DNA of 64,000 bases from Hufsiella arboris (GTDB taxonomy: Bacteria; Bacteroidota; Bacteroidia; Sphingobacteriales; Sphingobacteriaceae): the NCBI RefSeq assembly GCF_009834875.1, contig NZ_WVHT01000001.1, forward strand, positions 62,001 to 126,000. Reading direction: 5' to 3'. Positions 37,527 through 42,218 of the stretch are shown one piece after another. A program made the translations under genes and the position numbers. Position 1 is the first letter of the stretch, and each line of letters starts with the position of its first letter. Under the pieces are notes generated by a model. That model saw nothing but the letters and a program-made list of their open reading frames with translations, was not told the DNA's origin and did no database searches.

Positions 37527-38708
37527 TTACACTAATTTTTGATACGTACGCCACCACAAATCCGGCATCTCACCTGACACGGCGACCTGATAATCTTCAT
37601 ATTGGCAGGGCACCAAATGGAATCGCTCGTTTTTTGACACACCCACCGGGTAAGGTACCTGCATCCACCATCGATCCGATTTTTTGCTCTTTACAAACAC
37701 CAGTTCATGCTGGTTATTTTTTAGTGATGTTTTATAAATAAGATACTGCGACTTAGGCTGCAGCGGAAAGTCTTTCTTCCTATTATAGTAACCGTCTGTC
37801 AGGTACCAAAGCATTTGTGCGAGCAATGTCGCCGTTTGCCCGTTTTGATCAAATGCCGGATTAAATTCATAGAGGCCAATAGAGGACAATTTATCGCTCA
37901 TGCCGGCATAACGCATTATTTGACAGGCTTCTTCGCCATAAAAACCATTCGGTGTCGCATTGCCGTTCGCACAAGCATCCGAAGAACGGATGGCCGATAT
38001 ATCGAAACTGATCAGGTTGGCATTTCGGATGATTGGCTCCGCAATGTGAACTTTTCCGCTAAAATCCCCAAGCCTGTGAACGTCAAAATACAACTTCTCC
38101 ATTACCCGGAGGCTGTCCTGGTTAACGAAATAAGTTTGATAACCGATATTACTGTAATTAAACAAGTAGTTAGGCTGATGCAGAAATATTTTATTCAGGT
38201 AATTTCCAGATGTCGCCTCAATTGAGTCTTCATCGGTTTCATCGAGATCAAAATGCGAATCAATAACTACCAGGTCGACTTTCTGCTCCAGCTTTTCATA
38301 TGCCAGGTATTGCGCATAGGTGATATCCTGGCCTCCACCTAAAATGACGGGCATGATATTTTTTCTTACTAGGTCTGAAACCACAAGTTTCACAGCCGCA
38401 TACGTATCCGACACCTTTTCGCCGGCTTTTATATTTCCGAGGTCTGCAATTTTTACCTGGTAAGGCCCGGAATACAATGAATAGAATTTTTCACGGATAT
38501 AATCAGGACTCAGTGCACAACCCTGGTTATTTTGAGCATGCCGGTCGTCGAGTATTCCTATTAACGCTATGTCCGGTGTCTGACCTTCGATATCCGGAAA
38601 ACTGGCACTATGTATATCAATTAAATTACCTAACTGGCTTGAATAAAAGCCTGCTTTGGGAGTTAGTTTATCCAGATTAACCGGACTAAAGAAATCTGCT
38701 AACGACAT
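37527..38708 (-). CDS. arginase/formimidoylglutamase-family protein with altered metal site
   Basis: The 393-residue protein has the ureohydrolase fold: GGGQDITYAQY (124-134), VVIDSHFDLDE (147-157) and SFDISAIRSSDA (234-245). Active arginases bind two manganese ions through His in GGGHD, Asp-x-His-x-Asp, and Asp-x-Asp. Here D150, H152 and D154 are kept, but the His is Gln127 and the second Asp of the last motif is Ser238. Two of six ligands are therefore lost or changed. It could be a pseudoenzyme, use one metal, or act on another substrate. Relatives with the same changes occur in Bacteroidota and are called formimidoylglutamase; the activity is untested here. Confidence 0.8.
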   Translation of the reverse strand: MSLADFFSPVNLDKLTPKAGFYSSQLGNLIDIHSASFPDIEGQTPDIALIGILDDRHAQNNQGCALSPDYIREKFYSLYSGPYQVKIADLGNIKAGEKVSDTYAAVKLVVSDLVRKNIMPVILGGGQDITYAQYLAYEKLEQKVDLVVIDSHFDLDETDEDSIEATSGNYLNKIFLHQPNYLFNYSNIGYQTYFVNQDSLRVMEKLYFDVHRLGDFSGKVHIAEPIIRNANLISFDISAIRSSDACANGNATPNGFYGEEACQIMRYAGMSDKLSSIGLYEFNPAFDQNGQTATLLAQMLWYLTDGYYNRKKDFPLQPKSQYLIYKTSLKNNQHELVFVKSKKSDRWWMQVPYPVGVSKNERFHLVPCQYEDYQVAVSGEMPDLWWRTYQKLV

Positions 38709-39796: not shown

Positions 39797-41089
39797 GTGA
39801 AGAACTACTATATCATTGATTTTGACAGCACTTTCACTCAAGTAGAAGCTCTTGATGAGTTAGCCAGGATTTCGCTAAAAAAACATCCTCAGCGCGATGA
39901 AATCTATAAAAAAATTGAAGATTTAACTAACGCAGCAATGGAGGGCAAGCTCTCTTTTCGCGAAAGTTTGACTGGCCGCGTTCAATTACTCGATGCAACC
40001 CGCGAGCACCTTGATCTTTTGGTTAAACATCTTAAGAAAAAAGTTTCCGCTTCGTTTTCGCGCAATAAAACATTCTTCAAAAAACATGCTGACGATGTGT
40101 TGATCGTCTCGGGTGGTTTTAAAGAATTCATCACGCCGGTGGTACTCGACTATCATATCAAAAAGGAAAATATTTATGCCAATACCTTTGTTTTTAACGA
40201 CGAAGGCAAAATAATAGGCTACGATGACAGCAATCCACTTTCTCAGGAAGGCGGAAAGGTTAAGCTATTAAAGGAGCTTCAGCTTCCCGGTGACATTTAC
40301 GGCATCGGCGACGGACATTCGGATTTCCAGCTGAAGGAATTTGGAATGATCAAAAAATTTTTCGCTTATACTGAAAACATTGAGCGTAAAACAGTGGCGG
40401 CAAAAGCGGATCATGTTACCCCGAGTTTTGACGAGTTCCTGTATCTTAATAATTTGCCGCGCGCGATTTCCTATCCCAAAAACCGCATTCTTTGCCTGCT
40501 GATCGGCGATGTTTCGGAGCAAGCAATCCAGATTTTAAAACGCGATGGCTTCTCTATTCGTCATAAACAGTCATTTGAAGAGAAATATGTGGCTGATGCT
40601 GGCATGATAATCCTTGCGAATGGAGAGATCATCACAGATGACCAGCTGCAACGGGCCGCTAAACTTAAAACGATTGGTTATTTAGGTAACAGCCGTAATA
40701 AGTTTTCGCATGAATTATGTACAAAACAAGGCATCGTCGTTTTCGATGATACAAAAAACAACCCGAGAAACACGGAATTTATTCCGAAACGTGTAGCTTC
40801 TTTCATCAACAATGGGGATACTTATCTAAGCTGCAACTTTCCCAACCTGCAGCTTCCAAAAGTGGACAATGCACACCGGCTTATCCATATTCATCAGAAC
40901 GTACCGGGAATTATGGCGAAGATCAACCAGGTATTCGCAAAAAATAATATCAATATTGTCAGTCAGTTTTTGATGACAAATTCGTTCATCGGATATGCAA
41001 TTACTGATGTAAATACGGAATATGACAAGCAAATTTTAAAGGAGCTGAAGCAAATAGAACACACGGTGAAATTCAGGATTTTATATTAA
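39797..41089 (+). CDS. phosphoserine phosphatase fused to a truncated SerA with ACT domain
   Basis: The 430-residue protein joins two serine-pathway proteins. Residues 1-212 are a HAD phosphatase of SerB type: DFDST (8-12), SGG (105-107), GDGHSD (171-176). Residues about 228-330 resemble the substrate-binding lobe of phosphoglycerate dehydrogenase (SerA), and 347-430 match the SerA ACT domain closely (NFPNLQLP, HIHQNVPGIMAKINQVF). The NAD-binding lobe that lies between these parts in SerA is missing, together with its catalytic Arg, Glu and His. The protein should thus be a phosphatase with a serine-binding regulatory part. Start is GTG at 39797. Confidence 0.85.
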   Translation: MKNYYIIDFDSTFTQVEALDELARISLKKHPQRDEIYKKIEDLTNAAMEGKLSFRESLTGRVQLLDATREHLDLLVKHLKKKVSASFSRNKTFFKKHADDVLIVSGGFKEFITPVVLDYHIKKENIYANTFVFNDEGKIIGYDDSNPLSQEGGKVKLLKELQLPGDIYGIGDGHSDFQLKEFGMIKKFFAYTENIERKTVAAKADHVTPSFDEFLYLNNLPRAISYPKNRILCLLIGDVSEQAIQILKRDGFSIRHKQSFEEKYVADAGMIILANGEIITDDQLQRAAKLKTIGYLGNSRNKFSHELCTKQGIVVFDDTKNNPRNTEFIPKRVASFINNGDTYLSCNFPNLQLPKVDNAHRLIHIHQNVPGIMAKINQVFAKNNINIVSQFLMTNSFIGYAITDVNTEYDKQILKELKQIEHTVKFRILY

Positions 41090-41147: not shown

Positions 41148-42218
41148 ATGAACGCAACAGACACCCTGGACATACAGATAACGAAAGTTGAGCATTCAAG
41201 ATTATCAGAAACCAGTTTTGAAAACCTTGTTTTTGGAAAAATCTTTACAGACCATATGTTTTGCGCTGACTACGAGGATGGTGAATGGAAAAACTTCCAG
41301 ATCCTTCCCTATGGTGAATTGCCTTTAAGCCCGGCTATCTCTGCATTACATTATGGCCAGGCTTTTTTTGAAGGCTTAAAAGCATATAACTTTCCAAACG
41401 GCAAAGTCGGAATTTTCCGCCCCGACAAAAACGCAGAACGATCGAATAAATCAGCCGAGCGTTTAAGTATGCCTCACTTACCGGAAGATATTTTTGTACA
41501 GGCGATAGCTGCTTTGGTAGATATCGACCGCGCATGGATTCCAAGCAAGCCCAATCATGCTTTATATATCCGGCCGTTTATGTTTGCAACAGATCCTGCT
41601 TTGGGTGTTCAACCATCCAAAACATATAAATTCATGGTGCTTACCAGTCCGGTTGGGCCGTTCTTTGCAAAACCATTGAAGGTTAAAATTGAGACTGATT
41701 TTTCTCGTGCCTGCGAAGGAGGCTTCGGCTATGCAAAAGCAGCCGGCAATTACGCCGGTTCACTTTTACCTGCCAGAGAAGCGGCGAAACAAGGTTACGA
41801 CCAATTAATCTGGACAGATTCGAAAGAACATGCGTATATCGAAGAATTAGGCGCCGCGAATATCATGTTCATCATTGAAGGTAAATTGGTCACTCCATCA
41901 ACACGTGATACGATCTTAAAAGGGATTACCCGCGACAGTGTTATTCAGCTCGCTAAAAGCTGGAACATCCCCGTTGAAGAACGACGTATTTCCGTATCTG
42001 AAGTTGTTGAAGGAATAGAATCCGGAAGAGTTACCGAGGCTTTCGGCGTGGGAACCGCCGCCACCATTATTCCGATTGCTGAAATAGGCTATAACGAAAA
42101 GTTGTATAAATTGAATGAATCTTCGCCTCGCGAATTTTCTAACAGAATGAATAAAGCATTAAACGATATTCGAAGCGGCCTGACTGAGGATCAGTTTGGC
42201 TGGAATTATATCATTTAG
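41148..42218 (+). CDS. ilvE: branched-chain amino acid aminotransferase
   Basis: IlvE (356 residues) transfers the amino group between glutamate and the 2-oxo acids of Leu, Ile and Val. It is a fold IV PLP enzyme. The PLP lysine is in FGYAKAAGNYAGSL, followed by the IEELGAANIMFII segment, TPSTRDTILKGITR and EAFGVGTAATIIPI. The frame is open 15 codons upstream, but ATG at 41148 gives the usual N-terminus (QITKVEHSRLSE). It follows the SerB-type gene by about 60 bases, both serving amino acid synthesis. Confidence 0.95.
   Translation: MNATDTLDIQITKVEHSRLSETSFENLVFGKIFTDHMFCADYEDGEWKNFQILPYGELPLSPAISALHYGQAFFEGLKAYNFPNGKVGIFRPDKNAERSNKSAERLSMPHLPEDIFVQAIAALVDIDRAWIPSKPNHALYIRPFMFATDPALGVQPSKTYKFMVLTSPVGPFFAKPLKVKIETDFSRACEGGFGYAKAAGNYAGSLLPAREAAKQGYDQLIWTDSKEHAYIEELGAANIMFIIEGKLVTPSTRDTILKGITRDSVIQLAKSWNIPVEERRISVSEVVEGIESGRVTEAFGVGTAATIIPIAEIGYNEKLYKLNESSPREFSNRMNKALNDIRSGLTEDQFGWNYII

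Follow-up and report, generated by a model that had tools for sequence, protein, structure and literature searches.

The 430-residue protein encoded at positions 39797 to 41089 of the window (the whole stretch of 64,000 nucleotides analysed, from Hufsiella arboris) consists of a HAD phosphatase joined to a type II SerA that lacks its NAD-binding lobe. In our reading, to which we give a probability of roughly two in three, it is a phosphoserine phosphatase that uses the degraded SerA as a connector and serine sensor, so that feedback has moved from step 1 of serine synthesis to step 3. Comparison with relatives also makes it reasonably probable that this happened twice independently, the catalytic lobe of a bifunctional enzyme being cut out and the allosteric half kept, with the serine sensor of SerA now governing SerB and feedback falling on the final instead of the initial step of the pathway. 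If true, nature would have turned an enzyme into an allosteric module more than once.

Domain composition and predicted fold

The gene (39797..41089; this and the features below lie on the forward strand) is one open frame of 430 codons with a GTG start and its stop at 41089. Pfam assigned HAD to residues 7–179 (32.8 bits, cut-off 27), 2-Hacid_dh (PF00389) to residues 234–324 (24.8 bits, barely over the cut-off of 24.6) and ACT_AHAS_ss to residues 362–425 (44.3 bits, cut-off 27), and found no match in the protein to the NAD-binding 2-Hacid_dh_C domain up to E=1. The NCBIfam model for E. coli-type SerA, PRK11790, matched two separate stretches of the second half (E 1.3e-43, 149 bits), and its score below the cut-off of 404 is expected of a partial SerA. 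In a phmmer search of the PDB, residues 224–326 aligned with residues 4–112 of the E. coli SerA chain 1yba and residues 331–430 with 310–410; the jump from 112 to 310 indicates that about 200 residues are missing from the middle of SerA.

An AlphaFold model, built from an alignment of 45 sequences taken from the window and from related loci, had a mean pLDDT of 84 and a pTM of 0.66. Residues 227–430 overlay residues 7–410 of E. coli SerA with the NAD lobe skipped (Z 26.4–26.9, 203 residues, rmsd 1.7–2.0 Å), and when the SerA chains from Brucella and the enzyme Ser33 are taken together with those from E. coli, the overlay of residues 222/228–430 gave Z 25.6–27.3 over 201–207 residues (rmsd 1.7–2.5), the matched E. 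coli range starting at residue 6 or 7. Residues 1–226 overlay the phosphoserine phosphatases of Francisella and human (Z 19.5–20.6). The order given in the initial annotation, a HAD phosphatase followed by a SerA-like substrate lobe and a SerA ACT domain, is thus borne out by Pfam, NCBIfam, phmmer and the model; the structure prediction that it proposed as a check returned a SerA substrate lobe plus ACT fold for residues 227–430, and the stretch of about 228–330, whose relatedness to SerA it had left for checking, aligned with E. coli SerA both by phmmer and by structure overlay.

The joint between phosphatase and lobe (residues 191–230) had block pLDDT values of 52–64, and the model therefore does not fix the placement of the putative sensor relative to the enzyme. 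In a whole-chain fold search of the PDB many SerA rows superposed poorly (rmsd over 20) and the realigned list was used; probably the two halves are loosely joined. A chance open frame or a misreading of the domains was ruled out by Pfam, NCBIfam, phmmer, the AlphaFold model and the fold overlay, and the same build in 37 of 41 genomes of the own family (Sphingobacteriaceae) argues that the architecture is not due to chance. A frame error hiding an NAD lobe was also ruled out, the build being shared by these 37 genomes and by 80 named ones.

The phosphatase half

A HAD-IB phosphatase domain occupies residues 1–215 (39797..40441), as judged by NCBIfam and by alignment to human PSP (PDB 1nnl). 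In that alignment D8, D10, T12, E17, R61, S105, K154, D172 and D176 correspond to human D20, D22, T24, E29, R65, S109, K158, D179 and D183, and all nine residues are identical in 80/80 named relatives (the best 80 of 576), which also all carry the DxDxT, S, K and GDGxxD motifs of HAD-IB. We take human D20, D22, E29, R65, S109, K158, D179 and D183 to be catalytic and substrate residues, of which E29 and R65 presumably have a role in substrate binding. The score for the HAD-IB subfamily TIGR01488 was 64.4 bits, above the cut-off of 45, and that for the SerB equivalog TIGR00338 was 64.7 bits, below the cut-off of 144.15; a TIGR00338 match over cut-off is likewise absent from 7 of 14 control genomes. 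From its sequence, the gene would appear to encode the phosphoserine phosphatase of the cell, which performs the final step of serine synthesis.

The remnant lobe and the excision junction

The substrate lobe spans residues 227–339 overall. Its first segment, residues 227–325 (40475..40771), was delimited by Pfam, phmmer, alignment and structure overlay, and its second, a tail helix of residues 325–339, is followed by a linker to the ACT domain (helix and linker at 40769..40867, from the alignment and the AlphaFold model). Between them, at about residues 322–327 (40760..40777), alignment with the full-length fusion described below reveals the excision junction, where some 200 NAD-lobe residues of the full fusion are absent between NNPRN and EFIPK.

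The R60-S61-R/K62 substrate-binding motif of SerA reads A-N-G in the 430-residue protein. Across stripped forms the R60 position is occupied by A, G, D or Q and by R in 0/38, and S61 is S in 2/38. The NAD lobe, R60, R240, H292 and E269, the last of which we take to be a catalytic position of E. coli SerA, are absent from 38/38 stripped rows; with the NAD lobe and the catalytic positions gone, the protein is derived from SerA but is no SerA. In E. coli SerA, residues R60, K141', R240 and H292 serve in substrate binding or catalysis, according to excerpts of PMC6300728. Full fusions, aligned from 22 of 29 genomes, keep R60, S61, K62, GxGxxG, R240, E269 and H292 in 22/22, together with a lysine at K141 that was assigned by motif. 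Pfam, NCBIfam, phmmer and the AlphaFold overlay hence establish that the lobe comes from SerA and that no NAD lobe is present; with the alignment of stripped rows, they uphold the earlier statement that the nucleotide-binding lobe is missing with its catalytic residues.

The ACT domain and its predicted serine ligands

A SerA-type ACT domain was found at residues 358–430 (40868..41086) by Pfam, NCBIfam, phmmer and structure overlay. The serine site of E. coli SerA consists of H344, N346 and N364' in the excerpts of PMC6300728, and the phmmer alignment places H366 (40892..40894), N368 (40898..40900) and N386 (40952..40954) at these positions. H366 is accordingly predicted to be a ligand of the serine carboxylate, N368 of the amino group, and N386 of the amino group from the partner subunit. 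All three equivalents are kept in 80/80 named relatives (the best 80 of 576), as well as in 37/37 stripped and 22/22 full rows and in L035 and L065. The same source describes the ACT domains as the serine-binding interface between SerA subunits, at which bound serine turns the unit of substrate lobe and ACT domain relative to the NAD lobe in the E. coli enzyme (PMC6300728, in part). The C-terminal ACT domain is probably a serine sensor that would switch off serine synthesis at its last step. The initial annotation took the SerA part to be retained solely for serine sensing, which may be right; the serine ligands are conserved.

The serine pathway in the own genome and in relatives

The genome (4.8 Mb, 99.97% complete) contains no other convincing SerB in searches with TIGR00338 and the HAD-IB profiles: the other TIGR00338 match reached 22.8 bits over 58 positions, and no other HAD-IB match exceeded 32.3 bits (cut-off 45). 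Nine NAD-lobe matches were found, six over cut-off and three above 150 bits. One of these three lies directly after serC, in the gene of a 316-residue SerA-type protein (L056) with NAD and substrate domains and no ACT match, on a different contig from the 430-residue gene. ACT-less (type III) SerA is not serine-regulated (PMC6300728, in part), so that among the three serine-pathway proteins found the phosphatase alone carries an ACT domain.

In tallies that rest on best matches, second matches being left out, a separate SerA was present in 34 of the 36 own-family stripped-form genomes tested, each time 10–228 bases after the serC match (a further carrier of the stripped form, G026, was outside the 36). 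G049 has a separate SerA alongside the stripped form, on another contig. Two genomes carrying the gene, G009 (71% complete) and G031 (92% complete), gave no separate SerA at E≤1e-40; nor did G319 at this threshold, which has a 389-residue SerA-type protein beside serC without a Pfam ACT match. Of 29 full-fusion genomes, 12 have a separate SerA, each after serC, and 17 have none at E≤1e-40, so that in the latter the full fusion should be the dehydrogenase. A second SerA may thus be a permissive condition for stripping, as a correlation over few independent events. As a side observation, full-fusion genomes without a serC-serA pair (families f15, f29, f30 and f67, and G037) matched TIGR01364 weakly at best in those tested (best E about 1e-6 to 1e-32), so that their phosphoserine aminotransferase is probably of another type.

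Distribution of the stripped form

In a set of 60 near relatives that included the own genome, 41 gave some match; 37 of these belong to the own family, and 33 of them carry the 430-residue form; a wider survey added 4/4, which gives the 37/41 quoted above. In 395 Bacteroidota genomes 214 matched at E≤0.001, many through the ACT or phosphatase part alone, and several further Bacteroidota families have frames of about 630–690 residues that contain both parts. The named relatives (the best 80 of 576), whose open frames are 422–431 residues long when trimmed to the aligned start, are mostly Pedobacter, Mucilaginibacter, Sphingobacterium, Parapedobacter, Olivibacter, Arcticibacter and other Sphingobacteriaceae. 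The same best 80 of 576 include three Chitinophaga (L151, L172 and L180; 69–71% identity) and a record titled Flavobacteriaceae (L121; 75% identity) that carry the stripped form. In G319 (L035, G319:C1:14347-18630), which belongs to another family, the stripped form nests inside the own-family clade; its presence there and in the three Chitinophaga is a probable case of horizontal transfer, G319 having been placed in the tree and the Chitinophaga records not.

Four own-family genomes (G010, G023, G024 and G032) are without the gene, and since all have serC-serA, the gene can evidently be lost. No SerB of the 430-residue kind was detected in them; three gave no HAD-IB family match at E≤0.001, and G024 gave one weak match, in a 763-residue frame. 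At L075 (G415:C92:13000-17500) serB (235 open codons) and a type II serA (412) occupy separate stop-to-stop frames with an overlap of 46 bases, an arrangement that is possibly the unfused, ancestor-like state.

Origin by excision from a full-length fusion

The full SerB-SerA fusion (about 628 residues, e.g. L036 and L037) has the same order of SerB, substrate lobe and ACT domain as the 430-residue form, shares the SYPKNRI joint with it in the rows compared, and is 42–49% identical over query residues 1–326 in the rows listed; unlike it, the fusion still has its NAD lobe as well as the catalytic positions of SerA. These alignments, together with the trees, indicate that the 430-residue form descends from such a fusion by excision of the NAD lobe.

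Trees were computed on the phosphatase and ACT columns, the first from 17 of 39 stripped rows and 22 full fusions and the second from the same rows plus two partial ones. The own-type stripped forms group in a single clade (bootstrap 100), to which two full fusions of family f67 are together the sister (support 91/95 and 86/96 in the two trees). The stripped form of family f14 falls instead among full fusions of f4, f10, f12 and f26 (100/98 in both trees), and 0/200 bootstrap trees grouped all stripped rows. A single origin of the stripped form was rejected by the AU test (p 0.0226 when one row represented the second lineage, 0.00869 with two partial rows added), with the caveat of the second lineage's long branch, about which the tool gives a warning. 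Between shared flanks, the f14 protein L065 (FASPTTLAGKLIDYINKG) has seven residues fewer than the 430-residue protein (FDDTKNNPRNTEFIPKRVASFINNG). With the same long-branch caveat, the NAD lobe appears to have been excised at least twice, at different junctions. The initial annotation had an old SerA gene joined to SerB; the relatives support a SerA so joined and later stripped, in the sharper form that joining and stripping were separate events, since full-length fusions with intact SerA residues persist in related families, and that stripping occurred at least twice.

The NAD lobe is absent in 3/3 f14 genomes, of which one has an unbroken gene, G445 a frame-split one and G446 one split over contigs. 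In the single-contig genome G445 the gene lies in two frames (L196 and L199, G445:C1:2463440-2464701), by sequencing error or as a pseudogene.

Rates of the three domains

Estimates of dN/dS were mostly saturated (3, 40, 59 and 37 usable pairs of 347 for the four stripped-form regions), and tree lengths were therefore used, on one fixed topology of 16 own-type stripped rows, L065 and 22 full fusions. For HAD, lobe, tail plus linker and ACT they were 3.49, 8.21, 6.27 and 4.66 in the stripped clade, 8.31, 4.65, 7.36 and 6.19 in the full fusions, and 0.68, 3.13, 2.40 and 0.63 on the L065 tip. The lobe-to-HAD ratio thus rises from 0.56 in full fusions to 2.35 in the stripped clade and 4.6 in L065, and the ACT-to-HAD ratio from 0.74 to 1.34 and 0.93, which suggests that after each excision the lobe lost most constraint and the ACT domain little. 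The faster ACT relative to HAD in stripped (1.34) than in full forms (0.74) nevertheless counts against the sensor reading. Mean identities in stripped versus full forms were 0.540 versus 0.669 for the lobe, 0.757 versus 0.542 for HAD and 0.701 versus 0.642 for ACT (37 stripped rows, L065 and L035 being left out).

Proposed regulation and alternative readings

In the mechanism that we propose, an ancestral bifunctional SerB-SerA lost its NAD lobe, the substrate lobe becoming a connector and the ACT domain remaining a serine sensor. Two chains would pair through their ACT domains and bind serine at the ACT-ACT interface through H366, N368 and N386', as in E. coli SerA. The substrate-lobe/ACT unit would have survived whole, its counterpart now being the phosphatase instead of the NAD lobe, and a movement of this unit, or altered pairing, would be relayed to the phosphatase and lower its activity. 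Dehydrogenation would fall to the separate ACT-less SerA beside serC, and feedback would thereby act at the end of the pathway instead of at its first step.

The lobe and ACT domain could instead be a mere scaffold that keeps the phosphatase a stable dimer, with no serine sensing. The role of ACT domains as an interface between SerA subunits (PMC6300728, in part) and the fast drift of the remnant lobe fit this reading, as does mammalian SerA, which keeps ACT domains without a serine response; however, excerpts of the same paper also give altered ACT residues for the mammalian enzyme (PMC6300728). The serine-contacting residues are the same in 80/80 named relatives (the best 80 of 576) and in L065, which a dimer interface alone would not need, and we regard the scaffold as rather unlikely. 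It is improbable that the sensor acts in trans, the lobe-ACT part docking on the separate ACT-less SerA and lending it serine inhibition, or forming a SerA-SerB complex. That SerA has no ACT match in the own genome and co-occurs with the stripped form (34/36 own-family genomes tested, plus G049), as docking would have it, but within the phylum it seems to predate the stripping (12/29 full-fusion genomes have one), the two genes lie on different contigs in the own genome, and the remnant lobe evolves fast.

Quite improbable, too, is a phosphatase acting on another phosphate ester such as histidinol phosphate, which would make serine control irrelevant. The SerB equivalog cut-off is not reached, and PSP-like HAD proteins have been proposed as histidinol-phosphate phosphatases (PMC5764234, in part); yet in the own genome a HisB N-terminal domain scores above its threshold (158.4 bits, cut-off 140) and no further convincing SerB was found, E17 and R61 (E29 and R65 of human PSP) are kept, and the phosphatase domain was ancestrally fused to SerA. 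That the C-terminal half is simply being lost from a degenerating gene is hardly credible: the lower lobe identity of stripped forms (0.540 against 0.669) and the split frame of G445 in the second lineage point that way, but about 430 residues are open in 37 own-family genomes and 422–431 in 80 named relatives (the best 80 of 576), and mean ACT identity among the 37 is 0.70.

Relation to known systems

Type II SerA of E. coli (1psd/1yba) shares with the 430-residue protein the lobe fold and an ACT domain with the H344/N346/N364 site, but the latter is without the NAD lobe, R60, R240, E269 and H292, and should therefore not be a dehydrogenase. The phosphatase domain resembles those of the PSP-like protein of Francisella (3kd3, 29–32% identity) and of human PSP (1nnl/6hyy, 25–28% identity), which differ in being chains of about 220 residues without ACT. 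A fused SerA/SerB in Echinicola is reportedly among the re-annotations of the Fitness Browser. The initial annotation considered a phosphoserine phosphatase under a SerA-derived ACT domain unusual outside this phylum; our survey covered Bacteroidota. Mycobacterial SerB2 (ACT1-ACT2-PSP) is also a phosphoserine phosphatase with ACT domains; excerpts of PMC10564941 describe its inhibition by serine and indicate that serine can inhibit such an enzyme via ACT domains. SerB2 differs in having two ACT domains, the serine residues E33, R103 and T136, and no SerA lobe (PMC10564941, in part), so that its route of regulation differs as well.

No description of the SerB-SerA fusion or of its stripped form was found in titles and abstracts of the open-access literature, and the fusion is not mentioned in the excerpts of GapMind (PMC7311316) and of PMC5764234; a different fusion, of SerA with an aminotransferase, is described for oomycetes in part of PMC2705460. 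ACT-regulated biosynthetic enzymes are already known, and what is unusual here is the repeated origin by excision, regulatory domains usually being explained as add-ons recruited whole. Likely intermediates coexist in one phylum, namely adjacent unfused genes, the full fusion as apparent sole SerA, the full fusion with a second SerA, and the stripped form (twice), which makes the re-routing of an allosteric signal to a new catalytic domain experimentally testable. Feedback on the last step would let phosphoserine accumulate, and why this is tolerated is likewise a testable question.

Genomic context

Upstream of the 430-residue gene, the stop of an epimerase-type gene lies 9 bases before the GTG; downstream, a class IV aminotransferase gene has its likely ATG at 41148, 58 bases after the gene. 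Further upstream, a 393-residue frame on the reverse strand (window positions 37527–38708) has, by eye, the look of an arginase/formimidoylglutamase-type protein.
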